From a virus, in IMG/VR virus record IMGVR_UViG_3300027621_000003, positions 62,001-126,000 of that record: 64,000 nt of DNA; one strand, 5' to 3'. The notes under the pieces are model-generated. The model searched no databases, had not been told where the DNA came from, and was given only the letters and a program-made list of their open reading frames with translations. This document shows, piece by piece, positions 10,918 to 27,159 of the stretch. Every line of letters starts with the position of its first letter. The stretch's first letter is position 1. The translations under genes and the position numbers were made by a program.

Positions 10918-12135
10918 TTAAAAATTAGTTTTAAAACTATCTAAATTTATTTCCCATGGTGAATTTAATCCACCATCTAATTTAATACAATCTTTTGGAT
11001 TAACTTGTTTACTCAAATATTTGGTATCATTATTCCAAGCGGTTAACATAGTATCACTATATGAAATAGTTAGACAATCATTTTCCACTTGGGTTATCTC
11101 CCCGACAATATTATCAACCTTCACTCTCATGTATGTTTTAAACTCACCATTTTCTGTGTGTGATGTGTTATCAAATAAGTTTAAATTAACTTTATTTAAT
11201 GAATATAAAAAACGTTTATTTATATCTAAAAAAAATGGAGATATGATGGCTGTTAAATTACAACTTTTTTTGGAAAATAAAACATTACAAATACCACCAC
11301 CTATTGCACCAACAACTTCTTCAACATTGGCAAATAAAAGTATTTTTTCCGTAGTTGTCATGTTTTCTGTGAATACCTCTGTAAAACCATTTTCAATTAA
11401 AAAATTAACCAAAGAATCTTCGTTGACTAATTTACGTTTAGTTGTGTAGTTTGTACCTATATTACTAAAATCACCATGTAACCAACTTCTTCGTGAAATA
11501 TAAACTTTCTTAGGTAAATTTTCTTGATTAGTATCTTTACTCACTCTCTTAACAATTTTACGATATAAATCATAAATTTCATTTCTTGGGGGTAAATTAG
11601 AATCAAAATCGTGTGTATATGATGTTGATACTAAAATTGATGAGTACTCAGTATTTTCATCTATTATTTTAATATCATTATCTGTAATTCCCAGTATATC
11701 TAAAAACTCAGAAACAAATCTATAATGTTCTTTTTTATTGGGATTTGGATAATTCATTAATAGTTTTAAATTTGGTTTTGTTTTCTTCATTTCCATAAAA
11801 CTTATCAAATATGGTAATGTGTCATAAACAAAATGAAAATAATTATCGGTATTATAAATAAAGTAGAATAAACTTTCTGACTCAAAATTTTTAGTTGTTT
11901 TTTCCTCATCAAATTTAATATCTTTTGAAATTCCTTTCAAAGACATTGTGGTTTCTTGAATAGGATTAACTATTTGATTTGTTTCATTTGAAATAAAAAA
12001 AATGTTTGGATAAAATAAGGATTCTCCAGTTGGGATTACATTTTTTAATTCATAGACATTTATTTCTCGTTGATTTGAGTCAACAGGAAATAAATTAATT
12101 TTATCAATTATTTCTTTATACGATACAAGATTCAT
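10918..12135 (-). CDS. GT61-family glycosyltransferase (DUF563)
   Basis: The protein has 405 residues. Typical GT61 features are YFHFVYDTLPYL in the first half, KVYISRRSW, RKLVNEDSLVNFLIENGFTEV, and GAIGGGICNVLFSKK near residue 280. GT61 enzymes include O-linked GlcNAc- and xylosyltransferases of glycoproteins as well as many capsule enzymes. The C-terminal 100 residues (after FLDINKRFLY) form an extra domain I do not recognise. It is encoded one base upstream of a GT-A-like gene boundary at 12136, in a continuous operon. Confidence 0.75.
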   Translation of the reverse strand: MNLVSYKEIIDKINLFPVDSNQREINVYELKNVIPTGESLFYPNIFFISNETNQIVNPIQETTMSLKGISKDIKFDEEKTTKNFESESLFYFIYNTDNYFHFVYDTLPYLISFMEMKKTKPNLKLLMNYPNPNKKEHYRFVSEFLDILGITDNDIKIIDENTEYSSILVSTSYTHDFDSNLPPRNEIYDLYRKIVKRVSKDTNQENLPKKVYISRRSWLHGDFSNIGTNYTTKRKLVNEDSLVNFLIENGFTEVFTENMTTTEKILLFANVEEVVGAIGGGICNVLFSKKSCNLTAIISPFFLDINKRFLYSLNKVNLNLFDNTSHTENGEFKTYMRVKVDNIVGEITQVENDCLTISYSDTMLTAWNNDTKYLSKQVNPKDCIKLDGGLNSPWEINLDSFKTNF

Positions 12136-13011
12136 TTAATTTAACTCTTCAAGTATTTTATAAAAACTTTTATTTAACCTTGTATGTTCTGCCATATCTG
12201 TACCTCCAACTCTTTCATCTTCATGCCACCAAATATCAAATTCTAATGTTACAAATAAATCAGGGTGGTTTCTATACATTAATGTCATTATGTCTTCTTC
12301 GTGATATAGTCTTTTATCATGTTCAGTAACTTGATAAACATATTTTTTGAAGAGTGTGATTATCTCGTTTAATAATTCTTTTTTTCCACCAAAAAAACCA
12401 CCGATGATGTGTCTAGAATTATCATATTCATTAAAATGTAATTCATTGACAGTACCTGACCAAAAATTTCTTGAGTTTTCTTTTGAAACAATGATAATTT
12501 TATCACCACTTTTAGAAATTAAATTGTTCAAAAATGTATTATTAAATAAAGAACTTTCATAATATTGACTATTATGAATACCTGTTTTTGCCAAATATCT
12601 GTTTGGTATTAAACCACAATGTGACAAACCAGCATCTATCCAATAATAATTGTCATAGGACATATCCTCCATTGATAACCATATGAACTTCATATACTGA
12701 ATCTCAATACATCTATCCCCTCTTTTAGTTCCTTCATAGTCTTTGTATTGACCAATCAAATCAGAAAATTCATTTTGTTTTAAATCAAATTTAACAAATT
12801 TAATTTTTTCAGGATTTATATTGTTTTCAACATAGAAAAAATCAACTAATTTATCGTACTCATCATCAGATGTGTAACATATAAAATCTGCGTCTGTCAT
12901 TTTTAATAATGATAGTAAGCTCCAAAAATAATGACCCTGTCTACCATTTCTCCCACCTAATTCAGTTCCATATAAATTAGAATAAATTGCTGTAATAATT
13001 TTAGTTTTCAT
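12136..13011 (-). CDS. Probable glycosyltransferase, HtrL/YibB-like
   Basis: This 291-residue product starts KTKIITAIYSNLYGTELGGRNGRQGHYFWS and contains YYWIDAGLSHCGLIP about halfway, a WIDAG segment like the metal-site region of the HtrL/YibB (WlaTC-like) group. A late HIIGGFFGGKKE follows where GT-A enzymes place the acceptor loop. The resemblance is from short motifs only, so the family is tentative. It overlaps the upstream GT25 gene by about 11 bases. Confidence 0.5.
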   Translation of the reverse strand: MKTKIITAIYSNLYGTELGGRNGRQGHYFWSLLSLLKMTDADFICYTSDDEYDKLVDFFYVENNINPEKIKFVKFDLKQNEFSDLIGQYKDYEGTKRGDRCIEIQYMKFIWLSMEDMSYDNYYWIDAGLSHCGLIPNRYLAKTGIHNSQYYESSLFNNTFLNNLISKSGDKIIIVSKENSRNFWSGTVNELHFNEYDNSRHIIGGFFGGKKELLNEIITLFKKYVYQVTEHDKRLYHEEDIMTLMYRNHPDLFVTLEFDIWWHEDERVGGTDMAEHTRLNKSFYKILEELN

Positions 13012-13735
13012 ATATAAATTCTTTATGTTCGTTGTTTTGTTTAGTTATTTGATTACGTTCGTAATCTAAAAATTCGCCAGAAATTTTATATGGAGAATAC
13101 CCATTCCAATTATAAGTTTGTATATAAAAATTACTATAAGACCCTTGTGTGACATCTGAAAAATCACTTTTTTGTGGTGCTATTGGTAATATTGGACAGT
13201 AACTTTGTTTTTTTGTTGTTATGTTATTATAAATGTACTCATCAATTGCATAATAACCTTGTAAATTATCGGTCACAATTTGTTTAACATCATTAAATAT
13301 TGATTTATGATATACCATCATATTTGTTGCAAATACACCCCTATGTCTTTCTTCTTTAGGTGGAAAATTAGTAATATCAATTAACAATTTATGGTTTTTA
13401 CTAACATCAACAGGTCTATTATGTGTTGGGGATAAATTTAAAATACCAAATTCAGTATTTTCTAACTCAATGTCCAATTTTTCAATAAATGATTTTGCGT
13501 ATGGCATAAATGAACAATCATCTTCTATAACCATAACATATTCATAATCTCTTTCAATTGCAATATCTATGATTGCAATATGAGATAACGTGCATCCTAA
13601 ATGACTACCTGTATCAACAGCTTTGAATAATTCATAATCCCACCCAATGTATGACATTTCTTTTTGGATGTGTTCTAATCTGTCAATACGTTTTTCTAAA
13701 TTTAGAACAAATTTTGGTATTTCATTTAATTTCAT
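13001..13735 (-). CDS. GT25-family glycosyltransferase (LPS type)
   Basis: I use the ATG at 13735 rather than the more upstream one at 13780, because the protein then begins directly at the GT25 core (IPKFVLNLEKRIDRLEHIQ) and the overlap with the preceding gene disappears. In this numbering (244 residues) LGCTLSHIAIID is at 46-57 and the metal-binding EDD at 71-73. Both are defining GT25 elements, as in LPS galactosyltransferases and collagen-type enzymes. The C-terminal part is DEYIYNNITTKKQSYCPILPIAPQ, where GT25 proteins show a related ending. Confidence 0.8.
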   Translation of the reverse strand: MKLNEIPKFVLNLEKRIDRLEHIQKEMSYIGWDYELFKAVDTGSHLGCTLSHIAIIDIAIERDYEYVMVIEDDCSFMPYAKSFIEKLDIELENTEFGILNLSPTHNRPVDVSKNHKLLIDITNFPPKEERHRGVFATNMMVYHKSIFNDVKQIVTDNLQGYYAIDEYIYNNITTKKQSYCPILPIAPQKSDFSDVTQGSYSNFYIQTYNWNGYSPYKISGEFLDYERNQITKQNNEHKEFIYEN

Positions 13736-13739
13736 ATCT

Positions 13740-14339
13740 TTATATTTTTTCCCAATTTTCCCACACAAACTCATAATCATAAGTTAATTTGTGTGTTAAA
13801 GTTAATTTTTCTCTTATCCAATTTCTTAAATTTACAGAATCTGGTATAAACTGATGAAATTGTACCTGTATGTTTTTAAACATATGTATAACATCATTAT
13901 CAATTAAACTCTTTAATACTGGAAATTCATCACCCTCAATATTAATCTTTATTAAATCAATGTTGTCTATGTTATTTTCATTTAAAAATTTAACAAATGA
14001 AACAACTTTGGCCAATATTTTATTTTCAGCGTTAATATAAAAAGAACTTCCATCGTTTAACAATGCAATCTCAATTGATTTATCTTCGTCTGAAATTCCA
14101 AAATTATAAACTTTTATTTTTTCTTTATCTTTAAATTTTTCTACCAAATTATTATATAACTCAGGTATAGGTTCAAAAACATGTACATAACATTGATATT
14201 TATCGTAAATTTTTTGAGTCCAACTTCCGTGATATCCACCTAAGTCAAACACAATTGAATTTTCGTTTAGGGGGTAATTAACTCTTAATGTGTCGTCACC
14301 ACCAATTTTAAACCATTCTTGTAAATCTTCGTAATTCAT
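13740..14339 (-). CDS. FkbM-family methyltransferase
   Basis: The start at 14339 (MNYEDLQEW) is preferred over a TTG at 14423, which would run into the GT11 gene. In the 199-residue product, IVFDLGGYHGSWTQ is SAM motif I, HVFEPIPELYNNL is the FkbM-type second motif, and LIKINIEGDEFPVLKSL is the characteristic IDxEGxE-like segment. FkbM enzymes mostly O-methylate sugars. The gene sits between GT11 and GT25 genes with short gaps (about 20 and 4 bases). Confidence 0.85.
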   Translation of the reverse strand: MNYEDLQEWFKIGGDDTLRVNYPLNENSIVFDLGGYHGSWTQKIYDKYQCYVHVFEPIPELYNNLVEKFKDKEKIKVYNFGISDEDKSIEIALLNDGSSFYINAENKILAKVVSFVKFLNENNIDNIDLIKINIEGDEFPVLKSLIDNDVIHMFKNIQVQFHQFIPDSVNLRNWIREKLTLTHKLTYDYEFVWENWEKI

Positions 14340-14358
14340 TTTTTTATTTTTTTTATGT

Positions 14359-15138
14359 TTATATGATAACCCAATTTTCTGGATAAAGGTCATCTGTAAT
14401 GTATGAATGTAATGTCGGACCAAACCATTTTTTTGGTGATATTACAATATTTTCTTTTTTATTTAACCATGCACCCCACCAACTAAAACTACTATTTGCA
14501 ATAATATTATTATTACAGAATGACATCAAATACAATTCTTCATAGTCGGATAAATCGGTAATAAAAACTTTGTTTTTAATATATTCAAACTGTGTTTTAC
14601 AATATTCAATATCATCTGAAAATATTAAATAAACTGATTCAGAACCAATTATTTCATATGATTTTTGATAGTAATCATGTGATAAAACTGGATGGTAATT
14701 TTCTAAATGAAGATAATCACCTCGTCTTACATGTATAGAACAAGTTTTATTTTTTAATATTTCTCCGTATATAGATTGTAATTTATTTTTAATTTCATCA
14801 TTTGGTTCAAACAAAGATAAAATTCCTTCTCGGTTTTTTTTAAAATATTTATCACTTTGAAAAAAACCTGATAATTTTATACTTCTATCAAACTTAGGTA
14901 TTTCACAGTAATGAAAACTACCCACATTATAAACTTCATACGGTACTTCTGTATTTGAAAATTTTACTTTTTGAAATATTGTGTTTTTATATGAGCTTAA
15001 TGGGTTGTGTCCATTATAATGTTTAGTTTCATCAACAATAAAATCTGAGTCTTCGTCTATTGAGGTAGAATACCCTGTAGCGATTTGAAACATTGTATTA
15101 CCAAGACCTCCGTGTATATTTGTTGAAATAACATTCAC
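14359..15138 (-). CDS. GT11-family alpha-1,2-fucosyltransferase
   Basis: The 259-residue protein has the full GT11 motif set: GGLGNTMFQ at 10-18, FFQSDKYF at 92-99, HVRRGDY at 136-142, LIFSDDIEYCK, and NSSFSWWGAWL at about 215-225. These enzymes transfer L-fucose from GDP-fucose to a galactose. No GDP-mannose dehydratase or GDP-fucose synthase is seen in the window, so the donor must come from the host or be a related sugar such as GDP-L-galactose, which the epimerase-like gene at 3513-4586 could supply. Confidence 0.9.
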   Translation of the reverse strand: MNVISTNIHGGLGNTMFQIATGYSTSIDEDSDFIVDETKHYNGHNPLSSYKNTIFQKVKFSNTEVPYEVYNVGSFHYCEIPKFDRSIKLSGFFQSDKYFKKNREGILSLFEPNDEIKNKLQSIYGEILKNKTCSIHVRRGDYLHLENYHPVLSHDYYQKSYEIIGSESVYLIFSDDIEYCKTQFEYIKNKVFITDLSDYEELYLMSFCNNNIIANSSFSWWGAWLNKKENIVISPKKWFGPTLHSYITDDLYPENWVII

Positions 15139-15143: not shown

Positions 15144-15908
15144 TTAATCTTTAAACATTAAATTTGATTTATCATCATATCCTCGTCTATGTGCAAAAAT
15201 TACAGAACCAATAGATTTTGCACCTTCCAAGTTTCTACTTGAATCCGTCCAATATCCGTATATGTCAATTTCTTGTTTTGAACAACCATATCTTGAAGCC
15301 AATATAGACAAAATACTTTGGTCATGACGATGATTTTCTTGATTTCCATCTAAACAACCTTCAATTAACGAAAACGCATACGCATCATCAAATAATTGTT
15401 GATATTTTCCATTAGATTTATATCCAACCAATCCAGCCCAAAGTTGGTTATCACTAAGTTCGCTTTCTGTAGCAGAAACACATTCAACACATTCTGAGTG
15501 TGTAAAATTTCTATTTATGTGAACATCACCAACTAAAAATATTTCTTCGTTTTCAATCTTATCATAGATTTCTTTAATTGATTTCAAAGGACATGCTCCT
15601 GAGTCCAACCATAAAACATTATGTCCCAAACTACTTGCATTTTTCATACAGTAAATTTTATAGATGTAAGATTTTGGTTCCAAAAATTTTGAATGTAATT
15701 CTGTTGCGTTTGATGGGAAATTTAAAACTTCAACATTTTTTAATGTGTTTAAATAATTAATTTCATTTTCTTCCAATCCCAAGTTAAAAACAAAAATTCT
15801 ATCAACAACTTCCAAACTATCTTTATGTACATTACTTATCAATGTTAAAAGAGAACTATAGTAGGGACTATTGGTCGCGGTAACTAAAATATTATTATAC
15901 ATTTTCAT
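15144..15908 (-). CDS. Probable glycosyltransferase, GT-A-like (DUF1647-like)
   Basis: The 254-residue protein has FVFNLGLEENEINYL and, about 40 residues later, GHNVLWLDSGACPLKSI, a DSG metal-type motif. These resemble DUF1647/GT8-like enzymes. A further DQSILSILASRYG segment is typical of the acceptor half of such enzymes. Two ATG codons (15908 and 15902) are possible starts; both overlap the end of the upstream GT10 gene, so coupling is likely. Function is inferred from fold-level motifs only. Confidence 0.5.
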   Translation of the reverse strand: MKMYNNILVTATNSPYYSSLLTLISNVHKDSLEVVDRIFVFNLGLEENEINYLNTLKNVEVLNFPSNATELHSKFLEPKSYIYKIYCMKNASSLGHNVLWLDSGACPLKSIKEIYDKIENEEIFLVGDVHINRNFTHSECVECVSATESELSDNQLWAGLVGYKSNGKYQQLFDDAYAFSLIEGCLDGNQENHRHDQSILSILASRYGCSKQEIDIYGYWTDSSRNLEGAKSIGSVIFAHRRGYDDKSNLMFKD

Positions 15909-16710
15909 TTAAATAAGTTTCAATTATTTTTTCAGGGTAAATATATTTTTTAGCAGATTCAAAATTACTTTGGATTGAATTTATTTTAGAGTTATACAAT
16001 TCCACATCTAAAGTATCAATAATTGTTGATAATTCATTTTCATCGTTGATGAAAATAACACCATTAGTATCAAAATAATTTTCAATGTTTTTTGTACCCC
16101 AATAAATTGGAATGGTACCTGTCAAGAAACAATCTAATAGTTTTTCAGTAAAATAATCCGACTCAATTGAATTTTCAATTACAACTGAAAATCTATAGTC
16201 TTTTAGACCATCAACTTTTAAATCAATAGGTTTATCACAACCACTACCATAAAAATCAATTTTACCACTATCTTTAAACATATTATAGATTGAGTGTCTT
16301 AATCTATGACCATGATTCCAAGTTTTCCATGAAAAAATTGTGCTAATAGATTTTAATTTTTCGTGAATACCCATATCCTCTTCTCTCATCCATGTTCCAC
16401 CAGCTGGTATGTAAACAAAATTATCAATTCTGTCGTTTAAATCTTTTATGAAACTAAAAATATATTTAAAATTTTTGTAGTCTCTAACAGCCTTTCCTTG
16501 ATGGTCACCATTAATAATGGGTGGTTCTAATAACCAAACACAATTAATTTTTTCGGGATTTATTTCTTGTGAAAATGCCATACTGTCGGTGTATATTGCA
16601 ATATCATACTCGGTTGTTGTCCTTGACCATTCTACAGGACTTGGTAAATTTAAAGATATCCCTGACACACCGTCAAAGTTACCGTCAATTAATTTTATTG
16701 TTTTTGTCAT
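15895..16710 (-). CDS. GT10-family alpha-1,3/4-fucosyltransferase-like
   Basis: Residues 153-205 hold the GT10 core: FYGSG at 153-157, DYRFSVVIENS at 171-181, and YFTEKLLDCFLTGTIPIYWG at 186-205, which is the GDP-fucose binding signature of the family. The N-terminal half is the less conserved acceptor domain. At 271 residues it is on the short side for bacterial GT10 enzymes (about 330-480). With the GT11 gene it makes two fucosyltransferase families in one phage operon. Confidence 0.85.
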   Translation of the reverse strand: MTKTIKLIDGNFDGVSGISLNLPSPVEWSRTTTEYDIAIYTDSMAFSQEINPEKINCVWLLEPPIINGDHQGKAVRDYKNFKYIFSFIKDLNDRIDNFVYIPAGGTWMREEDMGIHEKLKSISTIFSWKTWNHGHRLRHSIYNMFKDSGKIDFYGSGCDKPIDLKVDGLKDYRFSVVIENSIESDYFTEKLLDCFLTGTIPIYWGTKNIENYFDTNGVIFINDENELSTIIDTLDVELYNSKINSIQSNFESAKKYIYPEKIIETYLNENV

Positions 16711-16721: not shown

Positions 16722-17969
16722 TTATAAATTACCTGTTATTCTTTCACACCAATCTTTAGATATTGAGTGTGGCCAAACAACCCAATACTTAGGTTTATGT
16801 TCTGTTTGGAATTCTCTCCATACCTTACAGTAACCATCTGGGTCATTCATCATTCTATTGATTTCATCTTTGTCAGCATCTTTTCTGTTCAATGTCTCAT
16901 CATTTTCACCGTGGAAAGCAACAACCCAAAAATCATAATCTTTTTCAGGGACTTGTGAGAATCCAATATCAATACAATGTTTAAATACTTGAGCAAAGTT
17001 TTTCTTCCACTCTTCCTCAGATTCAAAATTATATGGGTTTGGTGGGTAATTCTTATCTAACGTATGTTGTTGAACCGCTCTTTTTTCAAATAAAAGACCT
17101 GAATATTTTTCATAATCTCTTAATGTCCTAACGGGTCCAAAACCATAAGGTCCATCATGTCCTTCTTGTTGTTCACCATCCATACCAAACAATTTTCTAT
17201 TGGTAAAATGTGAATGACTATTTTTATTTCCCCACTCTTTATCATCATCCCACTGTTTTGTTCTACCTTTACGAGTATATTCGTGCCAAATTAAAACTTT
17301 ATGTGGGTGGAATAAATCATAACCCCAAGTGTAAGCACGAGCAGCAATTGATATTTCTTCACCGTGGAAATAGTATTCAGGATTGTGTTGTACTTCTTTT
17401 GAGAATTGTCCTAATGTAAAACAGTAGTGAGCTGAATAGAAACGAGATGTAACAGGTTCTGTTAAGCTCTGCCAACCTGGAATTGTCTCAGGTAGGAAGA
17501 ATACCGCACCTTCGGGAATAAATCTGTCAAACGCCATTCTCCATGGTTCTTGCATTCTCCCTGCTGGGTCATTGTCGGGGTCAAATGATGAAACATATCC
17601 TGTAAGTAATGGTTTTTCATGACCTTTCTTTTGGAGTTGTTTAATCATCTTAATCATTTCATCGTCCCAATTGGGTGCGAATCTCATGTGTGAGTCAATT
17701 TGAAGTGTATATTCTTCATCTTGATACACTTGTTGGACTTGGTGTCTTGCCCAACAAACACCCTTTGATTCCAAATATGGAATGTTAAGGATTCTAAATC
17801 TTTTATCTTTTTCGTACTCTGACAAATCATCAAATTTATCATCAGGATGAAATTGTCTTGCAATACCAATTCTTAAGTTTTTAGGTCTTTTAGCATTTTC
17901 TATCATACTTTTGATAGTAGCGATAAGTTGGGGGTCACGATAAGCGGCAATTTGAACAAATATTTTCAT
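16722..17969 (-). CDS. GT60-type (Skp1/polypeptide alpha-GlcNAc) glycosyltransferase
   Basis: The protein has 415 residues and begins MKIFVQIAAYRDPQLIATI, as in GlcNAc-transferase family GT60. Further family elements are SKGVCWARHQVQQ, LQIDSHMRFAPNWD with the DSH metal site near residue 94, FYFHGEEISIAARAYTWGYDLF-like sequence near 200-220, and a W-H-E-Y segment. Characterised GT60 enzymes attach alpha-GlcNAc to hydroxyproline of Skp1 or to threonine of trypanosome mucins. The gene is the first glycosyltransferase behind the Thr-Pro-rich fibre gene (57-base gap), which suggests the fibre as its acceptor. Its base composition and codon use are slightly less AT-rich than in the genes after it. 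Confidence 0.8.
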   Translation of the reverse strand: MKIFVQIAAYRDPQLIATIKSMIENAKRPKNLRIGIARQFHPDDKFDDLSEYEKDKRFRILNIPYLESKGVCWARHQVQQVYQDEEYTLQIDSHMRFAPNWDDEMIKMIKQLQKKGHEKPLLTGYVSSFDPDNDPAGRMQEPWRMAFDRFIPEGAVFFLPETIPGWQSLTEPVTSRFYSAHYCFTLGQFSKEVQHNPEYYFHGEEISIAARAYTWGYDLFHPHKVLIWHEYTRKGRTKQWDDDKEWGNKNSHSHFTNRKLFGMDGEQQEGHDGPYGFGPVRTLRDYEKYSGLLFEKRAVQQHTLDKNYPPNPYNFESEEEWKKNFAQVFKHCIDIGFSQVPEKDYDFWVVAFHGENDETLNRKDADKDEINRMMNDPDGYCKVWREFQTEHKPKYWVVWPHSISKDWCERITGNL

Positions 17970-18026
17970 GAATATATTTTTTCATAAAAATATTAAAGGA
18001 TTTGAAAAAGTTAATAGGAAATAATA

Positions 18027-21000
18027 TTATAATCCATATTTTGATTTATCGGCGTTAAAGTTTTGTAATACTTGTGCTGAGGTAAGTGCTGCGTTGTATA
18101 AACGAGTTATACCAATTTTTCCATCAAACCATTGAGAAAACTCTCCACCATTGTAACTACCAATGTAAAGTGGGTTAGTTGAGTTTAATATACTTGCCAA
18201 ACTATGACCCACACTTCCTATACTTACACCATTTACAAATGTTTGAAGTGTATTGGCGGCAACATTGGTAAACACATAAACTATTTGGTACCATGTGTTA
18301 GTTGTTCCAGTGTAGAAGGTACTATCAACAAATAATGATGAACCAGTACCACTACCTGAACCTAATTGAGCATAATATGTGGTGTTAGTTGTTCTAATAC
18401 TATAACTTACATCTTGGGATAGACCTCCATTATCAAACTTTCCAAGAACAACATCGTTACCTAACACTGCTTGATTAACCCATACTTCCATAGTCCAGTT
18501 CCCACTTCCTGGTTCTAATAAGGGATTATCCGCAACACTAACTTGAGATGAGGCTCCATTATATGTGAAGTATGGTGATGTATATGTGATATTGGACATT
18601 GAACCATTTAATTCATTTCCTGATAAATCATTAATTGTTGTACCAGTACCAGGGTAACTTGATAAATTACTTGGGTCATAATATAAAACAAGATTAGCGG
18701 TTACTGGAACCTCAGGTGTTGAGGTTGGTGTTGGTGTTGGTGTTGGTGTTGTTGTATTAGTTGGTGTAACTGTTACTGTTGGTGTTTGTGTTATTGTAGG
18801 AGTAGGCGTTTCAGTATTTGTTGGTGTTTGTGTTATTGTTGGTGTTTGTGTTATTGTAGGTGTGGGTGTTTCAGTATTTGTAAGTGTTGGAGTTACAGTC
18901 TGAGTCGGAGTTGGTGTCTGAGTCGGAGTTTCTGTATTTGTAAGTGTTGGAGTTATAGTATTAGTTGGAGTATTAGTTGGAGTTTCTGTAGGTGTTGGCG
19001 TATTAGTAGGAGTTTCAGTATTAGTCGGTGTAGATGTTGGTGTATTAGTAGGTGTTTCAGTGTTAGTAGGTGTTTGTGTTGGCGTATTAGTAGGAGTTTC
19101 AGTATTAGTCGGTGTATTAGTTGGTGTAACACTTGTTGTTGGTGTAACTGTCGGCGTAATAGTTGGAGTTGGAGTTGCCGATGGACACATACCTAAATCA
19201 ACAATAACCAAAGAATTAACACCACCAGTTCTTACAATACTATTTTTGGTTGCACATAAATAAACATCAGGATTTGGTGGTAAAATGTTTCCAACAATTA
19301 AAGTACCATAACAATCCGTATAAGAATAAATAACGTTTCCTCTATCAGATTCATTTATTAATTGATAATATTCACATCCTGTATATCCTGGTGTTGATGT
19401 AACACTTGGTGTTGGTGTTTTAGTTGATGTAACACTTGGTGTTGGTGTTTTAGTTTGTGTATTAGTTGGTGTTGGTGTTTTAGTTTGTGTGTTAGTTTGT
19501 GTGTTAGTAGGCGTTGTCGTAGGTGTTTTAGTGTTAGTAGGCGTTGTCGTAGGTGTTTTAGTATTAGTTGGTGTACGTGTTAAATTTATAGTGTTGGTCG
19601 GTGTCTGAGTAGATGTTACCGTTGGTGTTACCGTTGGTGTTAATGTCTGAGTAGATGTTACCGTTGGTGTTAATGTTTGTGTTGCAGTTGCGGTTGGAGT
19701 TAATCCAGTTGTTGCGGTTGGTGTAACCGTTTTTGTTGGTGTTAGAGTTAAAGTTGGTGTTACTGTAGGAGTTTCAGTGTTTGTTGGTGTTACTGATGAC
19801 GTAGGTGTGTTTGTGGGTGTATGTGTAGGTGTTATTGTAGGTGTAGGTGTAGGGAAATCACAATTTAAACAATATGGATTTAAAAAATTATAAATTGGTC
19901 TTAAAATTCTGGCGTTGTGTTGAATTTCAGGAACCGATAATGGTTTTGCATACATATTAAATTTGGATATTGCACCATCAAAAGTACCGGCAAAATTTTG
20001 TTCTATTAATATATTGGTTGTAAGGCCACTTAATGTTGTTCCACTCAAAATATTTGGTGGGAACAATTCAGGGTCTTGTGTGTAGTAATTAATGTCGTTT
20101 GTTGGTACCGCGCTAAAAATTAAATTTTCATGTAATCCTTGTGTTCCACCACCCCAAGAAATATTAAATGGTACTCCAACTTGATTTTCTTTGTGTCCAA
20201 ATAAACCACGAGGTATGATTTCTTCAACATCTTCAAATACATAAAATATTATACCATTAATGTAAATTTTCATTCTACCTCTACGGTATATTTTTTCTAA
20301 AATCCAAAGATTGTTTAACTCAACAAGTTCTTCTATTGTTGGAATTAATTCATAATGTGTTATTGGTGGTGATATTAATGAAACTGAATTATTTACGGTA
20401 CTGGCAGTATATGGGAAGATAGTGATTGTCCCAAGACCACCACGATAAAACAAATCGCACGTATCTAACCATGTATATCGTTCAAAGACTACATCCACTA
20501 AAACCCAATGTTCTTGTTCGTCATATGTTGTTCCACTACAATTATCATAAATTCCTCTATTGGTACAATAGTTATTTATTGAATAACCAGTTACTGAACC
20601 AGGACCTAAAGTTTCACAAGAACCTGTGTAAATACAATCACCTGTTATGGTTAAAGTTCTTATACAAATTTTTGGATTGTGTGGGTCACCACTAAATTTG
20701 ATTGCAATTGCATTAGACATTGAATCATATTCAGGATTATGTTCAGGAATTGGAACTGGTGGTTCGGGACAACAACAAAGGTCTACTTGAGTATGTGAAT
20801 CTGTAGTTCCTGTTGGTGGATATACTAATATACAATTAGAATCATTATATTGCAAATAACCCGGCTTGGTTATTATTGAAAATTTAATGGTTCCCAATCC
20901 AACTCGTTTTGTTGTTACAAATTTAAAATCTCCGGTTGATGCTGTGTATCCAACAACAGTTCCCTCAAGATATTGAGCGTCGTCATGATAAATTAATGCC

Positions 21001-21971
21001 GTATCACCCGAAACCCATAATAAATTTGGAGAAACAGTTAATGTTCTACCTGTTGTTGTTAAATCAAAAATTGTTGTTGATGAAGTTGTATATCCCGAAT
21101 ATAAATCAACACAAAAACAACTTGTTAATCCAGTCAACGGTGTTGTAATTCTGTAATAAGATGGGTCACCTGAATTTGTTCCGGCTGCGTGGTGCCAATA
21201 CTTATTTTCGGCTCTTGTACCCATGTAAAAGAATATACCAGCATTATTTGGGTAATATTCATTTAATGTGGTTTGTCCTGAACTTGGAGAATAGACATTT
21301 GATAATCTTGGCTTTAAAGTCATCTCTACCGTCCATCCTTTTGGATATCTTTCAGGTAAAATTTTATAATCGTATCCGAACAATTCATAAAATCCTTGAT
21401 AAAAACCACCATATAATTCTTGGTAATTTCCAATAGTTTGTGCACTATATGACACAACATTATAAATCGTTCCTGCGGTTACACCCGAAAATCTTGTGTT
21501 TGGAGTCCAAGTATAACCAGTAACTTGATGTAATTTTAATCTTCTATCAAATTTATACCTATCAAATTTTTCATTAGCAGGTAGTAAGCCATTAGTATAA
21601 GTTATTGATTGACCTGTCATTCCGGTTACCAATCCGTTGTCAGTTCCTGTTAATCCAATATCACAAATTGTTTTTGAAGAATAACAATCAATTAGAACAT
21701 CATTTGGGTTGTAGTAGTTTTCAGAAATTAAAATGTTATCAAAGTCATAATTTCCATATGTTAATGAAAAATTTTGATTACTTCCTGTAAAATTAATATC
21801 AAACTTAACTGGTAACACGTCACCATTATATGCGCCAATAATATATGGTGAAAAAATAACTTCTTCGTTATAATCTCGTTCATCTGATGCTAAAGAAAGG
21901 TCTGTAACCTCCAAAAATGGTGATAAATACCATTTTTTATAGACATATTGGTTAATGTTCTGATAAGCCAT
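18027..21971 (-). CDS. Giant tail-fibre/adhesin with Thr-Pro repeat stalks and LamG-like tip
   Basis: This 1314-residue protein is probably a receptor-binding fibre. Residues 1 to about 700 are a virion-type region rich in TG and GxT turns with several cysteines. About 707-860 and 930-1084 are arrays of TPT/TNTPT-type repeats, separated by a small cysteine-containing domain (GCEYYQLINESD to LGMCPS). The last 230 residues (ANLVLYYDPSNLSSYPG to the end) form a concanavalin/LamG-like domain, with WTMEVWV and IGSYNGG...DGKIG as typical strands. No signal peptide is seen. A TATTTAT element lies four to five bases before its ATG. The GT60 gene lies immediately downstream. The fibre assignment is an inference from architecture. 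Confidence 0.7.
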   Translation of the reverse strand: MAYQNINQYVYKKWYLSPFLEVTDLSLASDERDYNEEVIFSPYIIGAYNGDVLPVKFDINFTGSNQNFSLTYGNYDFDNILISENYYNPNDVLIDCYSSKTICDIGLTGTDNGLVTGMTGQSITYTNGLLPANEKFDRYKFDRRLKLHQVTGYTWTPNTRFSGVTAGTIYNVVSYSAQTIGNYQELYGGFYQGFYELFGYDYKILPERYPKGWTVEMTLKPRLSNVYSPSSGQTTLNEYYPNNAGIFFYMGTRAENKYWHHAAGTNSGDPSYYRITTPLTGLTSCFCVDLYSGYTTSSTTIFDLTTTGRTLTVSPNLLWVSGDTALIYHDDAQYLEGTVVGYTASTGDFKFVTTKRVGLGTIKFSIITKPGYLQYNDSNCILVYPPTGTTDSHTQVDLCCCPEPPVPIPEHNPEYDSMSNAIAIKFSGDPHNPKICIRTLTITGDCIYTGSCETLGPGSVTGYSINNYCTNRGIYDNCSGTTYDEQEHWVLVDVVFERYTWLDTCDLFYRGGLGTITIFPYTASTVNNSVSLISPPITHYELIPTIEELVELNNLWILEKIYRRGRMKIYINGIIFYVFEDVEEIIPRGLFGHKENQVGVPFNISWGGGTQGLHENLIFSAVPTNDINYYTQDPELFPPNILSGTTLSGLTTNILIEQNFAGTFDGAISKFNMYAKPLSVPEIQHNARILRPIYNFLNPYCLNCDFPTPTPTITPTHTPTNTPTSSVTPTNTETPTVTPTLTLTPTKTVTPTATTGLTPTATATQTLTPTVTSTQTLTPTVTPTVTSTQTPTNTINLTRTPTNTKTPTTTPTNTKTPTTTPTNTQTNTQTKTPTPTNTQTKTPTPSVTSTKTPTPSVTSTPGYTGCEYYQLINESDRGNVIYSYTDCYGTLIVGNILPPNPDVYLCATKNSIVRTGGVNSLVIVDLGMCPSATPTPTITPTVTPTTSVTPTNTPTNTETPTNTPTQTPTNTETPTNTPTSTPTNTETPTNTPTPTETPTNTPTNTITPTLTNTETPTQTPTPTQTVTPTLTNTETPTPTITQTPTITQTPTNTETPTPTITQTPTVTVTPTNTTTPTPTPTPTSTPEVPVTANLVLYYDPSNLSSYPGTGTTINDLSGNELNGSMSNITYTSPYFTYNGASSQVSVADNPLLEPGSGNWTMEVWVNQAVLGNDVVLGKFDNGGLSQDVSYSIRTTNTTYYAQLGSGSGTGSSLFVDSTFYTGTTNTWYQIVYVFTNVAANTLQTFVNGVSIGSVGHSLASILNSTNPLYIGSYNGGEFSQWFDGKIGITRLYNAALTSAQVLQNFNADKSKYGL
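18719..19183 (-). repeat. Second Thr-Pro repeat array of the fibre gene
   Basis: Degenerate 12- to 24-base units encode TPT, TNTPT and TETPT steps across about 155 residues. The period is a multiple of six bases, so unequal recombination would keep the reading frame and change stalk length. Confidence 0.85.
19396..19858 (-). repeat. First Thr-Pro repeat array of the fibre gene
   Basis: This array encodes about 150 residues of TPT, TKTPT and TVTPT steps. It resembles the array at 18719-19183 closely enough that recombination between the two could delete the small domain between them. Confidence 0.85.
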
Positions 21972-22018: not shown

Positions 22019-22828
22019 ATGGTTGAATTTGGTCGTGAATATTATAACAATGACATGTATTTTTTCTTAAAGAAAAGAAAAGATTCTATTGATGTCTACT
22101 ATTCTGTTGGTAATACAATTACAGAAGCCAGAACAATGGATGAAATTGTTAAAATACCTTTAATTAATGAAACTAAACTAAAATTAGTTATTGAAAAATT
22201 AACAAAGTCAAAGAAAAAATTTTCAAAAAAAGATATTAAAAGAATTATGGATAAAATTTCATCTGAAAAAGGTGAAATTGAAGAACTTGTTGATTACGAT
22301 GGTAGTTTTTCAAATTCAAAAGTTCCAATTCATGACCCTACTTTATCACCAACAAAAACTATGGACCAAACTGTGTTTGCCGCTAGACAAGCAACAAACC
22401 CATTATTACGTGGATATAGAGTTTACTATGGTGAAAGTGTTGTTAGAGAAATTGATGCTCGTGGAGCCTTTGGTTTTGAAGAAACTGAATTAGAAGGTGA
22501 AGATGCCAAAGAAGCGATTGAAACATTTAAAGAATTAGGTGTTGAGGACCCAAAAGGTAGAGCTAAAGAAATGGGTTATGACCCAAAATTAGAAAAGAAA
22601 AAATTACCAGGTTCTTTTACAAGAAAAAGATTAGAAGAAGTCCAAAAAGAAAAAATGATTAAAGTTCTTGAGGATATGGTAACAAAAAAATCAAAAGATA
22701 CTGACGTTCAAAATAAAGAAATAAACGCATCAAAATTATTAATTAAGAATTTAAGAACTCTTAAAAAAATGGCGGAAAAAGAAGGGTTAAGTAATTCTGA
22801 TATTTTAAAGTTACTAAAAAATGAATAA
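22019..22828 (+). CDS. Hypothetical protein, first gene of the plus-strand cluster
   Basis: I do not recognise this 269-residue product. It is highly charged, with long Lys/Glu-rich helices at both ends (for example KKKFSKKDIKRIMDKISSEKG and a C-terminal LRTLKKMAEKEGLSNSDILKLLKNE). A more ordered middle holds HDPTLSPTKTMDQTVFAARQATNPLLRGYRVYYGES. The composition suggests a virion or assembly protein rather than an enzyme. It heads a five-gene run to 24594 and is preceded by a TATTTATA element; the next gene overlaps it by eight bases. Confidence 0.7.
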   Translation: MVEFGREYYNNDMYFFLKKRKDSIDVYYSVGNTITEARTMDEIVKIPLINETKLKLVIEKLTKSKKKFSKKDIKRIMDKISSEKGEIEELVDYDGSFSNSKVPIHDPTLSPTKTMDQTVFAARQATNPLLRGYRVYYGESVVREIDARGAFGFEETELEGEDAKEAIETFKELGVEDPKGRAKEMGYDPKLEKKKLPGSFTRKRLEEVQKEKMIKVLEDMVTKKSKDTDVQNKEINASKLLIKNLRTLKKMAEKEGLSNSDILKLLKNE

Positions 22829-23291
22829 AGAACTTTATGATAAGAGTTGGGATTTTCCAAAAGATTTGCAGAATCATATGAGAGTATGTTTTGCTAAGGT
22901 CAAAAACGCTGATGCAAATACTGAAGGATATAATCGTAACAGAAGATTACAGACGGCAACAACAATTTCTTATCCTGAATTAAAAAGAGTAAAAAACTTT
23001 TTTGATAATCACACAGGAACACCTCAAGACGCACCATTTATTTTAAACGGTGAAAGTAAAATGAGAGATTTTGTTAATTCATCATTATCAGGTGCAAGAC
23101 AATCACTAGCAACTTCCAAAAATATCAGACAAGACACTGGTATGGAAAAAGAATTTGTTCAAACACCAAATGCAAATGTAAATCTTAATATTTCAAAAGA
23201 CGGAGCAAATAAAACAAGTCTTGAAAAATATGATTTACAAGTAACCGAAAGCCTAAAAAGGATAAATAACATTATGAAAAAAATAATATAA
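22821..23291 (+). CDS. Hypothetical protein (156 aa)
   Basis: No family is recognised. The N-terminal half contains KSWDFPKDLQNHMRVCFAKV-type mixed sequence and TISYPELKRVKNFFDNHTGTPQDAPFILNG. The second half is polar and probably helical (SLEKYDLQVTESLKRINNIMKKII). It starts inside the end of the previous gene, so the two are likely translated together. A structural or assembly role is suggested only by position. Confidence 0.6.
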   Translation: MNKELYDKSWDFPKDLQNHMRVCFAKVKNADANTEGYNRNRRLQTATTISYPELKRVKNFFDNHTGTPQDAPFILNGESKMRDFVNSSLSGARQSLATSKNIRQDTGMEKEFVQTPNANVNLNISKDGANKTSLEKYDLQVTESLKRINNIMKKII

Positions 23292-23296
23292 AAGTT

Positions 23297-23590
23297 ATGG
23301 AAAAATTACCATTAGATTTTTCACAACCAGCTAATAGATTAACTGCGATTGCGGAAATAGAAAGAAAAAAGAACATTGTAAAAAATGATTTTATTCAACA
23401 AAGCAATGAATATGGCACCACTAATCCGGCCGCACTTGCGGATGGAGATTCGATGGGAAGAGGTATAGGTACTTCAGACACTCGTAATGAAAGTGCGGGA
23501 ACATCAATTGACATTTTTGAAAGAAAGATGAACATTAAATTTAATGCTTATCAAGCAGACAAACCTTACAACGTAAAAGGTGTAGAATAA
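23297..23590 (+). CDS. Hypothetical protein (97 aa)
   Basis: This short polar protein shows no recognised domain. Its centre is rich in Gly, Ser, Asp and Asn (ALADGDSMGRGIGTSDTRNES), so it may be partly unstructured, while the start (FSQPANRLTAIAEIERKKN) looks helical. The last base of its stop codon lies next to or within the start of the WYL-like gene, indicating coupling. Confidence 0.55.
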   Translation: MEKLPLDFSQPANRLTAIAEIERKKNIVKNDFIQQSNEYGTTNPAALADGDSMGRGIGTSDTRNESAGTSIDIFERKMNIKFNAYQADKPYNVKGVE

Positions 23591-23985
23591 TGAAATTAAT
23601 TGGTTCGTTAAAATCTTTAATAACTGAAGCGGCATCAATAGATGATATTAAAAAATCTATTGAACAAAAACAAGTATGCTCCATTTACTATGAAGGTGAT
23701 GAACCAGGAGGAAGAGGATTACGTGAAATTGAACCTGTTGCGTTAGGACGTTCAAAGGCGGGTAATTTAGTTCTTAGAGGATGGGATAGAACGGGAGCGT
23801 CTCACACCGCTTATAAAGGTGAACAACCATTACCATCTTGGAGATTATTTCGTGTTGATAAAATAACTATGTTAAAACCTACACGTGAAAACTTTACTCA
23901 GGCACAACCTGGCTATAACTTTAATGGAGATAAAAGTATGACCCAAGTTATCTTAATTGCAAAATTTGATAACACAACAACATAA
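23590..23985 (+). CDS. WYL-like domain protein with possible capsid-targeting N-terminus
   Basis: Residues about 28-98 of this 131-residue protein read like a WYL domain: VCSIYYEGD, GLREIEPVALGRSKAGNLVLRGW, and WRLFRVDKITML correspond to the beta-strands and the terminal RxFRxDRI segment. WYL domains are ligand sensors, often for nucleic acid, in bacterial regulators. No HTH is attached here. The first 13 residues (MKLIGSLKSLITE) followed by AAS resemble capsid-targeting peptides of T4 internal proteins (MKTYQEFIAE-A), which end at a gp21 site of the form (I/L)xE. An internal head protein injected with DNA is therefore conceivable; a plain structural role is the alternative. Confidence 0.6.
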   Translation: MKLIGSLKSLITEAASIDDIKKSIEQKQVCSIYYEGDEPGGRGLREIEPVALGRSKAGNLVLRGWDRTGASHTAYKGEQPLPSWRLFRVDKITMLKPTRENFTQAQPGYNFNGDKSMTQVILIAKFDNTTT

Positions 23986-23988
23986 TAT

Positions 23989-24594
23989 ATGAACTCAGAA
24001 AACGATTTAATGCAAAAATTAGTGGTGGCTAAAAAAATTATGGATGCCCATAATAAAACACCAAGAGCTGGAAACAGTGGTGGAATTCCATCAACACCGA
24101 TGTTAGAACAATTTAACACACCGCCAGCAATGTATAATATTCCACAAGAATATATGGAAGAACAAAAACAAGTTCAACCACAACAAACATCTCAATTACC
24201 CGTTAAAGACAGAATTTTAAATTCAAGATTACCTGATGAAATTAAAAGATTGATGATTGAACATCCTATTGACAAACCAAACAATATGGGTGGTCCAACA
24301 TTATCTAATGAAGTTGTTGAAGCGGCAGCGAGATTAATGAAAACAGATGCTCGTGGTAATGTAAGTGAATCAAACGTGCCAAGACAACCTCAAGTACAGT
24401 ATCAACAAGGACAAAATACCTCTGGTATTGACTATAGTCTATTAAAGTCAATTATTAGAGATACAATAACTGAAGTTTTGACTGAAAAAGGTATGGTTGT
24501 TGAAAGTGCGTCAAAAACTAAAGAACAAATTTCTTTTAGAGTTGGTCAACACGTGTTTGAAGGTGTTGTAACAAAAATTAAAAAGATGAAATAA
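23989..24594 (+). CDS. Hypothetical Gln/Pro-rich protein (201 aa)
   Basis: The first 100 residues are rich in Pro, Gln and Asn and probably flexible. The last 65 (YSLLKSIIRDTITEVLTEKGMVVES, then ISFRVGQHVFEGVVTKIKKMK) look like a helix followed by a small beta domain. A similar helix (LLKxIIxxxxxxVLxE) begins or ends other small products here (40905-41375, 41812-42369). Function is unknown. It ends the operon before a hairpin at 24610-24642. Confidence 0.55.
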   Translation: MNSENDLMQKLVVAKKIMDAHNKTPRAGNSGGIPSTPMLEQFNTPPAMYNIPQEYMEEQKQVQPQQTSQLPVKDRILNSRLPDEIKRLMIEHPIDKPNNMGGPTLSNEVVEAAARLMKTDARGNVSESNVPRQPQVQYQQGQNTSGIDYSLLKSIIRDTITEVLTEKGMVVESASKTKEQISFRVGQHVFEGVVTKIKKMK

Positions 24595-24609
24595 TACTTT
24601 GATTTATTG

Positions 24610-24642
24610 AGTAAACTTTCTATTATTATGAAAAAGTTTACT
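24610..24642 (+). terminator. Hairpin before the 24644 start codon
   Basis: AGTAAACTTT and AAAGTTTACT form a perfect 10-base-pair stem around a 13-base loop, ending one base before ATG. It has no U-run behind it. It could be a weak terminator for the 22019 operon, an RNA processing site, or a structure controlling initiation of the 24644 gene. Confidence 0.5.
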
Positions 24643-24643
24643 T

Positions 24644-25855
24644 ATGTCAAAAATCAAAGTTTTAGTTTTACCATCAGACAGAACAGGTGTCGGAAAATTC
24701 CGCTCTGTTGACCCCCACATTTTTTTACAAAATTTATATCCCGATGATTTTCATGTTGATATTGTTTTTGATTTAGATATCAACAACCCGTCAGTATGGG
24801 ATGATTATCAAATTGTTCATTTTCATAGGGTAATTGCTGGTAATTATGAAAACACACCAAACATTGTTAACTATCTAAAACAAAGAGGTATTAAAACCGT
24901 AATGGATTTGGATGATTATTGGTTACCAACCAAAGAACACCCAATTCACGATTTAATTCGTGTTAATAAAATTCACGAAAAAATTGTAGATAACATTAAA
25001 GTGGCTGATTATGTATTAACTACAACAACACTTTTTGCTGATGAAATTAAAAAATACAATAAAAATGTTTTTATTTTTCCAAATGCAATTAATCCAAAAG
25101 AACCACAGTTTTGTGAACCAACAATTAAATCAGAAAAATTACGATTTGGTTGGTTAGGTGGTTCATCCCACTTATATGATTTAATGTTATTAGATGGATT
25201 GTTTCAAAGAATGGAACCATATAAAAACAAAGTACAAACTTATTTATGTGGTTTTGACATTAGAGGTAGTGTAACAGAAATTAATTCTGAAACAAAAGAA
25301 CAAACTAAGAGAGACATTAAACCAGAAGAAACTGTTTGGTTTAAATATGAAAATATCTTTACAGATAATGGAAAGTTAATCAGTCCTGATTATAAAGATT
25401 TTTTATTAAAATTTAAAGAAGAAGATTATTCTAAATTTTCAGATGAATATTACCATCGTGTATGGACAAGACCTGTTCAAAGTTATGCTAAAAATTACAC
25501 AAAATTTGATGTGTCTTTGGCACCGATTAAAAATCATATATTTAACCGAGTTAAATCACAATTAAAAGTTATTGAAGCAGGTTTTTATAAGAAAGCATTA
25601 ATTGCATCAAATTTAGGACCATATACAATTGACTTGAAACATTCATTACAAAATGGTAACTTTGTTGACGGAAACGCATTGTTGGTTGACGAAAGTAGAA
25701 ATCATAGTGATTGGTTTAAATATGCTAAGAAACTTATTGACAACCCAAATTGGGCTCACGATTTAGGTGAAAGGTTGTATGAAACAGTAAAAGACACGTA
25801 TGACTTAAATGTCGTAACTAAAACAAGAGCAGAATTTTATAAATCTATAGTATGA
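24644..25855 (+). CDS. GT-B (GT4-like) glycosyltransferase
   Basis: The 403-residue protein starts with a Rossmann-type strand (IKVLVLPSDRTGVGKFRSVDP). DDYQIVHFHRV and VMDLDDYWLP are typical of the first domain of phage GT4-like enzymes. RFGWLGGSSHLYDL begins the nucleotide-sugar half, and VKSQLKVIEAGFYKKALIASNLGPY carries the conserved acidic residue of the EX7E region. Donor and acceptor are unknown. A 10-base-pair hairpin ends just before its ATG and its stop overlaps the exonuclease start (ATGA). Confidence 0.75.
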   Translation: MSKIKVLVLPSDRTGVGKFRSVDPHIFLQNLYPDDFHVDIVFDLDINNPSVWDDYQIVHFHRVIAGNYENTPNIVNYLKQRGIKTVMDLDDYWLPTKEHPIHDLIRVNKIHEKIVDNIKVADYVLTTTTLFADEIKKYNKNVFIFPNAINPKEPQFCEPTIKSEKLRFGWLGGSSHLYDLMLLDGLFQRMEPYKNKVQTYLCGFDIRGSVTEINSETKEQTKRDIKPEETVWFKYENIFTDNGKLISPDYKDFLLKFKEEDYSKFSDEYYHRVWTRPVQSYAKNYTKFDVSLAPIKNHIFNRVKSQLKVIEAGFYKKALIASNLGPYTIDLKHSLQNGNFVDGNALLVDESRNHSDWFKYAKKLIDNPNWAHDLGERLYETVKDTYDLNVVTKTRAEFYKSIV

Positions 25856-26553
25856 TACAGGTACCATTAACTAAACTATTATTTTTTGACATTGAAACTG
25901 TTGGATTGCATAAAGACTACGATGGTCTTGAACAAAATCATCCAGCACTCACAAAACAATTTAACAATTACTTTGATTGGTTTCAGAAAAGATTTCCTGA
26001 AGACCAAGGGTTGGACCCACAACAAGTTTTTGTAAACCGAGCGGCACTTGTTCCTGAGTTTTCAAAAATTGTCTGTGCAAGTTTTGCCTTTGTTGGTCCT
26101 GATGGAAAAACACACGCACAAACTTTCTCAGGTGATGATGAAAAAGAAATCTTATTGGGTATTAACGCCCTTTTGAATAAAGTATTCAAATTAGATTTTT
26201 GGTTATGTGGACATAACATTAAAAACTTTGATATTCCTGTGTTAAATAAACGTATGGTTATCAATGGAATTAAACCATCACCACTATTACCATCTTATGA
26301 TACAAAGCCTTGGGAAATCAAAGCAATTGATACTATGGATGTATGGAAAATGGGTAATAACTTTGCATTATCATCATTGGAACTTATGTGTGCTGCCATG
26401 GGTGTTAAATCACCAAAAGAAGGTGAAGTTACGGGTAACCGAGTACACGAAGCATACTACGATTTTAATCAACTTGACTTGATTGTTGAATATTGTGAAA
26501 GAGATGTAATGGTATTGATTGATATAATTAAAAAATTTAAAGAACTACAATAA
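25852..26553 (+). CDS. DnaQ-like (DEDD) 3'-5' exonuclease
   Basis: The 233-residue product contains LFFDIETVG (Asp13, Glu15), CGHNIKNFDIPVLNKR as exonuclease motif II, and YCERDVMVLIDI as motif III. This is the DEDD set of the group related to the exonuclease domain of family B DNA polymerases. TMDVWKMGNNFALSSLELMCAAMGV is the usual segment before motif III. It would degrade DNA or RNA from the 3' end in replication or repair. It is followed one base later by the dUTPase gene. Confidence 0.85.
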   Translation: MIQVPLTKLLFFDIETVGLHKDYDGLEQNHPALTKQFNNYFDWFQKRFPEDQGLDPQQVFVNRAALVPEFSKIVCASFAFVGPDGKTHAQTFSGDDEKEILLGINALLNKVFKLDFWLCGHNIKNFDIPVLNKRMVINGIKPSPLLPSYDTKPWEIKAIDTMDVWKMGNNFALSSLELMCAAMGVKSPKEGEVTGNRVHEAYYDFNQLDLIVEYCERDVMVLIDIIKKFKELQ

Positions 26554-26554
26554 T

Positions 26555-27157
26555 ATGAATAACGAAAACGATGAAATGGACTTGTTGCAACAAGAATTAT
26601 CTAATATCTTGAAACAACTTCAAAATGAAATGGATGGTACTTCTGAACTTGAAATTGAAGAAATTCACGGTGTTAATTTAAAAGAATTAGAAAAAGCATT
26701 TAGTGAAAAAGAACCAAAATTAGATTTAAAATTTGTTAAATGTCATGCCGATGCTGTGTCACCAAGTTATAATTACCCAACAGATTCAGGATTTGATTTA
26801 CATTCAACAGAATCAACAATGATACCTCCATTATCAAGAATGGTGGTTGGAACAGGATTAAAGTTTAACATTAAAGACGGTTATGAAATTCAAATCAGAC
26901 CAAAGAGTGGTTTAGCATTAAAACAAGGATTAACTGTTTTAAACACACCAGGAACAATTGATTCTGGATATGACGGTGAAGTTAAAGTAATCCTATATAA
27001 CTCAACGCAAAACACAATTAAAGTTGATAAAGGTCAAAAAATTGCTCAGGCATGTGTTTGTCCTGTGGCAAATGGCAGATGGATAAACCCTGTTGAAGTT
27101 TCTGAAATTTCAGGTAAGGACAGAGGGGATAAAGGATTTGGTAGTACAGGGATATAA
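26555..27157 (+). CDS. dut: dUTPase with N-terminal extension
   Basis: All five motifs of trimeric dUTPase are present: DSGFDLHS (77-84), RPKSGLA (115-121), GTIDSGYDGEVKVIL (133-147), KGQKIAQA (159-166) and RGDKGFGSTG (190-199). The catalytic Asp is in motif III and the base-stacking Phe in motif V. It hydrolyses dUTP to dUMP and keeps uracil out of phage DNA. The first 55 residues are an acidic, Gln-rich extension with predicted helix that standard enzymes (about 150 residues) lack; it may bind a partner. Motif III has Asp where many enzymes have Arg (YRGE). Confidence 0.95.
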   Translation: MNNENDEMDLLQQELSNILKQLQNEMDGTSELEIEEIHGVNLKELEKAFSEKEPKLDLKFVKCHADAVSPSYNYPTDSGFDLHSTESTMIPPLSRMVVGTGLKFNIKDGYEIQIRPKSGLALKQGLTVLNTPGTIDSGYDGEVKVILYNSTQNTIKVDKGQKIAQACVCPVANGRWINPVEVSEISGKDRGDKGFGSTGI

Positions 27158-27159
27158 GT

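Follow-up and report, generated by a model that had tools for sequence, protein, structure and literature searches.

In this study, we analysed a 64,000-nucleotide stretch of DNA (hereafter the window; bases 62001-126000 of the 294,914-base virus record IMGVR_UViG_3300027621_000003), in which a gene for a fibre-like protein with two threonine-rich stalks is followed on the same strand by a gene for a GT60-type glycosyltransferase. We propose, with a probability of roughly 0.7, that this enzyme starts O-glycans on threonines of the phage's own stalks and that the genes behind it extend them, giving a mucin-like fibre. Such self-glycosylation had been suggested by the original prediction from the same DNA. 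Its support comes from genomics and structure prediction, namely the pairing of GT60 genes with Thr-Pro proteins, their co-occurrence across genomes, the predicted fold of the enzyme, the turnover of the sugar genes and the virion glycoproteins reported for the Xanthomonas jumbo phage XacN1. The window encodes a T4-type Gp23 major capsid protein (43167-45023), and its DNA is therefore that of a tailed phage. As Flavobacterium phages are among the closest capsid relatives in the phage collection (~42% identity), a Bacteroidota host is plausible.

Elements of the fibre-GT60 locus (positions in the window; aa = amino acids):
16722-17969, minus strand: GT60-family enzyme (PF11397), 415 aa, proposed chain starter
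17688-17696, minus strand: D92-S93-H94 of this enzyme, end of a strand, invariant, candidate metal/uridine diphosphate (UDP) site of a GT-A fold
18027-21971, minus strand: fibre-like protein, 1314 aa, with two (Thr-X)n stalks
19884-21971, minus strand: its conserved N-terminal part, aa 1-696 (66-97% identity in the non-identical relatives listed)
19371-19883, minus strand: stalk 1, aa 697-867 (76 Thr and 29 Pro in 171 aa; 73 Thr in one parity)
19203-19370, minus strand: short globular insert between the stalks, aa 868-923
18681-19202, minus strand: stalk 2, aa 924-1097 (79 Thr and 37 Pro in 174 aa; 77 Thr in one parity)
18030-18680, minus strand: exchangeable C-terminal tip, with a LamG_3 (lectin/glucanase-like) domain at 18069-18560
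22019-22828, plus strand: divergent gene (269 aa) marking the conserved edge of the locus

Regular threonine stalks in a fibre-like protein

The 1314-residue reading frame and its two stalks were found exactly as predicted. The composition of the stalks is mucin-like, i.e., a long stretch dense in Thr/Ser and Pro, with 44-45% Thr and 17-21% Pro; the two together contain 155 Thr and 66 Pro. The earlier term 'Thr-Pro repeats' understates their regularity. Threonine keeps to every second position with a parity of 73:3 in stalk 1 and 77:2 in stalk 2 (binomial p ~1e-18 and ~1e-20), and the lag-2 autocorrelation exceeds that of shuffled sequences (z = 9.9 and 11.8). The best notation is (Thr-X)n, where X is P, N, V, E, Q, K, L or I, and a (T/S)-X alternation is present in the stalks of every group examined. 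The Thr codons are mixed (ACA, ACT, ACG and ACC), which argues against a young DNA repeat. L006, the closest relative that is not identical, matches the N-terminal part at 97% identity and has a largely different C-terminal tip, with 61 of 198 aligned residues in common. Stalk threonine positions changed in 12 of 134 cases vs 28 of 97 for other non-Pro positions (p = 2e-4); this conservation is supporting and not decisive, because the alignment method itself favours matching Thr to Thr. Gaps inside the stalks were of even length, thus the (Thr-X)n register is kept.

Adhesive phage fibres combine a conserved base with a swapped lectin-like tip, and the same layout is found here. The LamG_3 domain, the similarity of the C-terminus to PHROG 8510 ('virion structural protein') and the exchange of the tip between relatives indicate that the protein is probably fibre-like. 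The GT60 open reading frame (ORF) starts 57 nt downstream of the fibre ORF. In a promoter/terminator scan, terminator-like sites were not above chance and none lay between the two genes, which is consistent with their co-transcription. Elsewhere in the record (~130-156 kb), ~28 tRNA genes were observed, including tRNA-Thr(tgt) and tRNA-Pro(tgg), which correspond to the commonest stalk codons.

A GT60 enzyme with a predicted fold close to mucin-type transferases

That the next gene on the strand is of GT60 type was borne out by a match to PF11397 of 218 bits (cut-off 21; E = 3e-64), covering positions 2-44 and 96-350 of the 352 in the profile, and the protein also matches PHROG 24687 'glycosyltransferase' (E = 7e-164). 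GT60 enzymes start O-glycosylation on hydroxyproline of Skp1 and on threonine of trypanosome mucin-like proteins, and the sugar transferred in this family is alpha-N-acetylglucosamine (GlcNAc) from a UDP donor. In 20 diverse homologues, 37-93% identical to the enzyme, no change was seen at D92-S93-H94, R96-F97, W101-D102 and H229-E-Y-T-R233.

A structure search leading away from polypeptide acceptors had been named as a result that would speak against self-glycosylation. We ran this search with an AlphaFold2 model of the enzyme (mean predicted local distance difference test score, pLDDT, 90.3). In the Foldseek comparison with the PDB, ranks 1-20 were all GT27 polypeptide N-acetylgalactosamine (GalNAc) transferases (E down to 1.5e-10), several of them solved with mucin peptides. 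In animals, mucin glycosylation is started by GT27 enzymes, whose substrates are Thr/Ser residues of Pro-rich mucin repeats. TarS, chondroitin polymerase, RmlT and GlfT2 rank lower in the same list, so that part of the similarity reflects the common GT-A fold. Membership of GT27 was considered and ruled out: no GT27 chain came up when the GT60 alignment was used as a profile against PDB sequences, and the Pfam scan of the protein detected no ricin-type lectin domain. The enzyme thus resembles GT27 in its predicted fold yet is no member of that family.

Recurrent pairing of GT60 genes with Thr-Pro proteins

For comparison of loci, ORFs were called mechanically, and a Thr-Pro ORF was defined as one on the same strand as GT60 in which T and P make up 50% or more of a 60-aa segment. 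Loci were made non-redundant by clustering GT60 at 95% identity, and genes five or more genes away were counted as far. The viral scans stopped at the 80 nearest or the first 120 matches, so their counts fall short of a census.

The GT60 proteins fall into three clades, ~40-50% identical to one another. Among 58 distinct loci of clade A, a Thr-Pro ORF lies at position -1 in 34, at -2 in 21 and at -3 in 10; positions +1 to +3 hold none. It was found within three genes of GT60 in 32/36 loci, and 47 of 205 near genes were of this kind vs 9 of 306 far genes (p = 1e-12). The same pairing reappears in clade B, whose GT60 is ~40% identical, in 27 of 40 loci (32/236 near vs 5/340 far genes, p = 5e-9). 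There the usual place of the Thr-Pro ORF is +1 or +2, on the opposite side to clade A. In bacterial loci the signal is weak (8/60 with a Thr-Pro ORF near GT60, p = 0.05). Six bacterial contigs (L427, L429, L449, L455, L458 and L461, from Jiulongibacter, Planctomycetaceae, Prosthecobacter, Sphingomonas and others) carry GT60 at most two genes from a Thr-Pro protein, and some of them may be phage-derived.

Co-occurrence was also observed irrespective of gene order. Viral contigs of at least 40 kb were picked by a TPTxTPTxTPT DNA pattern, with controls picked by a collagen-like pattern; PF11397 was present in 21 of 50 Thr-Pro contigs vs 1 of 29 collagen-repeat contigs (p = 2e-4). Of the records of at least 150 kb examined, the nine with GT60 (the phages XacN1, RAS14 and CM1 and six IMG/VR contigs) all contain coding matches to TPTxTPT, 6-116 each, vs none of nine GT60-less T4-like relatives totalling 2.7 Mb (p = 4e-5). 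The reversed pattern gave 0-1 matches in the GT60-positive records. Clade C and XacN1-like phages show no adjacency and carry the repeats elsewhere in the genome, which explains the non-adjacent cases within this nine-record sample. The non-Thr-Pro parts of the stalk proteins do not form many unrelated families, as single linkage joins most of them via shared modules.

The large contigs behind L123 (202 kb), L086 (181 kb) and L138 (166 kb) have strong Thr-Pro repeats and no GT60. In ten GT60-less contigs, the genes adjoining the Thr-Pro ORFs gave no alternative glycosyltransferase in Pfam.

A constant GT60 gene, the proposed starter, and an exchanged sugar cassette

Behind GT60, 21 genes in the same direction had been counted. 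The window holds 20 whole further minus-strand ORFs of at least 90 aa, and the 21st lies only partly inside, running off the left edge. Their description as mostly sugar enzymes is a fair one, with sugar-type matches in about 12 of the 20. Above the Pfam cut-offs are GT10, GT11, GT25, GT61, GT31/Fringe, an NAD epimerase, a class II aldolase, a phosphoribulokinase (PRK)-type kinase, FkbM and type-24 methyltransferases and WcbI. Eight of the 20 have no usable Pfam match, and one further match (HAD-like) is weak.

Genes behind GT60 (in order of distance from it):
15895-16710, minus strand: GT10 (fucosyltransferase-like)
15144-15908, minus strand: unassigned protein with a weak, sub-threshold DUF1647 match
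14359-15138, minus strand: GT11 (fucosyltransferase-like)
13740-14423, minus strand: FkbM-type methyltransferase
13001-13780, minus strand: GT25
10918-12135, minus strand: GT61
9459-10907, minus strand: phosphoribulokinase/uridine-kinase-type protein
8770-9444, minus strand: class II aldolase
8475-8783, minus strand: HAD-like phosphatase (weak, sub-threshold)
5891-6571, minus strand: Fringe-like/GT31
5341-5898, minus strand: methyltransferase (Methyltransf_24)
3513-4586, minus strand: NAD-dependent nucleotide-sugar epimerase/dehydratase
799-1671, minus strand: WcbI-type polysaccharide enzyme

The syntenic locus beside the 269-aa gene holds a Thr-Pro fibre and GT60 in nearly every relative, and the genes that follow are exchanged. 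Across 36 loci, the 232 genes behind GT60 form 72 families, and the +1 gene alone belongs to 22. Their Pfam matches include FkbM methyltransferases, GT25, PLOD-type and RXYLT1-type glycosyltransferases, GT10, GT7, GT11, UDP-galactopyranose mutase, carbamoyltransferase and sulfotransferase. The far end of the island is a conserved HtrL_YibB gene, separated from GT60 by 1-13 genes in 75 loci (within a 10-kb flank). In the genome of the window this end lies just outside (L330:2548-4221, 78% identical), and the cassette is a large one of 21 genes. A constant GT60 with variable followers is as expected of an initiating transferase with swappable extension. One locus (L510) has a single fibre gene followed by two tandem GT60 genes.

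Further Thr-Pro proteins and sugar genes of the genome

Seven Thr-Pro-rich ORFs were found in the genome of the window. Besides the fibre-like protein, two products encoded within the window are possible further acceptors:
42655-43077, minus strand: 140-aa protein with a Thr-Pro tail, beside the Gp23 gene
56984-57973, minus strand: 329-aa protein with a long (Thr-X)n stretch

The 140-aa protein could be a glycosylated head decoration. An 866-aa Thr-Pro protein (L327:4710-7310) has a weak Hoc-like head-decoration PHROG match, and on visual inspection its domains resemble those of SprB-type surface proteins of Bacteroidota. At ~261-294 kb of the record (L338:8000-20000, L205, L206), a second fibre and sugar cluster contains two Thr-Pro-rich ORFs, a SET-domain protein, an FkbM methyltransferase and GT2 proteins. 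On the plus strand, the gene run at 22019-41375 of the window includes a glycosyltransferase (PHROG 7162), a GT2-type protein and a UDP-glucose dehydrogenase.

Alternative explanations

Several observations weigh against glycosylation of the stalks by GT60. The template modelling (TM) scores of the enzyme to the polypeptide GalNAc-transferases are only ~0.5, and the profile search of PDB sequences did not recover this family. Adjacency was seen in 0 of 13 clade C loci, and in one relative (L517) GT60 is present and the fibre is not Thr-Pro-rich. Among the Thr-Pro contigs 29/50, some of 160-200 kb, are without GT60; the contigs may be incomplete, and taken at face value the repeats do not require GT60. 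The XacN1 glycoproteins are not tied to Thr-Pro proteins in the available part of PMC5852040. In addition, the phages and loci are related, therefore all p-values are optimistic and independence is overstated. A stronger argument than the p-values is the recurrence of the pairing in separate GT60 clades with opposite gene orders. The contigs without GT60 and the inflation of counts by shared ancestry would also fit stalks that are unmodified flexible spacers, with (Thr-X)n spreading in some large phages on mechanical grounds and GT60 co-occurring through shared lineage. We regard this as very improbable, since the association reappears in three clades and, weakly, in bacteria, and the GT60-less T4-like relatives are without such repeats.

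The sugar cassette might instead modify the host surface (lipopolysaccharide or capsule) or the phage DNA, the Thr-Pro fibre being a mere neighbour. Both roles have precedents among phage glycosyltransferases and are considered for large aquatic phages in PMC12619734, and the WcbI, epimerase and methyltransferase genes look like those of polysaccharide clusters. Nevertheless, this appears unlikely, because the Thr-Pro pairing recurs despite different gene order, and genome-wide without adjacency, and because the closest folds are polypeptide transferases and not DNA glucosyltransferases. Alternatively, GT60 could act on stalk prolines hydroxylated by a phage 2-oxoglutarate-Fe(II) (2OG-Fe(II)) oxygenase, as Skp1 GnT1 does on hydroxyproline in Dictyostelium. 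Two PF13640 oxygenases of this type, one fused to a GT2 domain, are indeed encoded in the second cluster, together with Thr-Pro proteins and sugar enzymes. However, they lie ~200 kb from the GT60 locus, and the residue fixed at every second position is Thr, whereas X is Pro in only about half of the cases in clade A stalks, which makes this route quite unlikely.

A model for stalk glycosylation

In the explanation that we favour, initiation on stalk threonines, the GT60 protein would be a polypeptide O-glycosyltransferase of a T4-like jumbo phage, assumed to work in the cytoplasm. Through its action, threonines of the adjacent 1314-aa protein, and probably those of the six further Thr-Pro-rich proteins in the genome, would receive their first sugar; judged by the enzyme family, this is most likely alpha-GlcNAc supplied by a UDP donor. 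Fucose-type transferases, GT25, GT61, a Fringe-like enzyme and methylation, all encoded behind GT60, may then extend and decorate the chain. Between its conserved base and its exchangeable, lectin-like tip, the fibre would thereby gain a mucin-like stalk that is stiff and hydrated. With the starter fixed and the extension genes exchanged, the coat would vary between phages while the acceptor stays unchanged. It is tempting to generalise this to a widespread mucin-type O-glycosylation of prokaryotes and large phages, in which a GT60 starter is dedicated to (Thr-X)n stalks and an exchangeable extension cassette between fixed flanks lets phages make a glycan coat of their own that varies much as capsule loci do; we hold this broader view to be slightly better than an even bet.

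Relation to known systems

It is already known that phages glycosylate their own virions. According to the part of PMC5852040 available, 'at least two glycoproteins' were reported in the XacN1 virion, and its authors suggested in 2018 that the two phage glycosyltransferases ORF328 and ORF334 are their source; the idea of virion modification is therefore not new. We found that ORF334 is the GT60 of this analysis (46.6% identical to the enzyme of the window). XacN1 also encodes Thr-Pro proteins: ORF350 (654 aa), with Thr-Pro stalks around a globular part, adjoins a gene annotated 'structural protein', and the giant ORF325 has short Thr-Pro linkers. The homologues of ORF350 in RAS14 and CM1 match over the N-terminal domain, and the RAS14 gene (196 aa) has no stalk. 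XacN1 thus shares with the window the same GT60, Thr-Pro proteins and, as reported, virion glycoproteins, but its GT60 is not adjacent to a Thr-Pro gene. GT60, Thr-Pro repeats, their pairing and the identity of the glycosylated proteins are not mentioned in the available part of PMC5852040.

Skp1 GnT1 of Dictyostelium and the mucin GlcNAc-transferase of Trypanosoma cruzi belong to the same family (PF11397, far above the cut-off), whereas the GT60 of the window is phage-encoded, lies beside a fibre gene and has a (Thr-X)n stalk as its putative acceptor. The GT27 enzymes offer the closest solved folds and differ in the sequence-level features described above. In mycobacteriophages, capsid and tail-tube proteins are glycosylated (Freeman 2023, as cited in PMC12619734). 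There too, phage glycosyltransferases decorate virion proteins, but the glycans sit at the C-termini of capsid and tail-tube proteins, and the accessible part of PMC12619734 mentions neither a mucin-like stalk nor GT60. No description of the GT60/Thr-Pro pairing in phages was found in the open-licence literature. What appears to be new is the recurring, dedicated pair of GT60 and (Thr-X)n together with its exchangeable cassette.

Implications

Protein glycosylation of phage particles has rarely been documented, and for the XacN1 virion glycoproteins the available part of PMC5852040 names no target. The GT60/(Thr-X)n pairing names a starter, an acceptor motif and extension genes together, and can be tested in the cultured phages XacN1, RAS14 and CM1. 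If the proposal is true, phages make mucin-like fibres and vary their sugar coat through gene exchange, which would matter for how they adsorb, mimic receptors, move in mucus or biofilm and are seen by the immune system. Mucin-type O-glycosylation would then reach beyond eukaryotes via GT60, including the bacterial GT60 genes beside Thr-Pro proteins.

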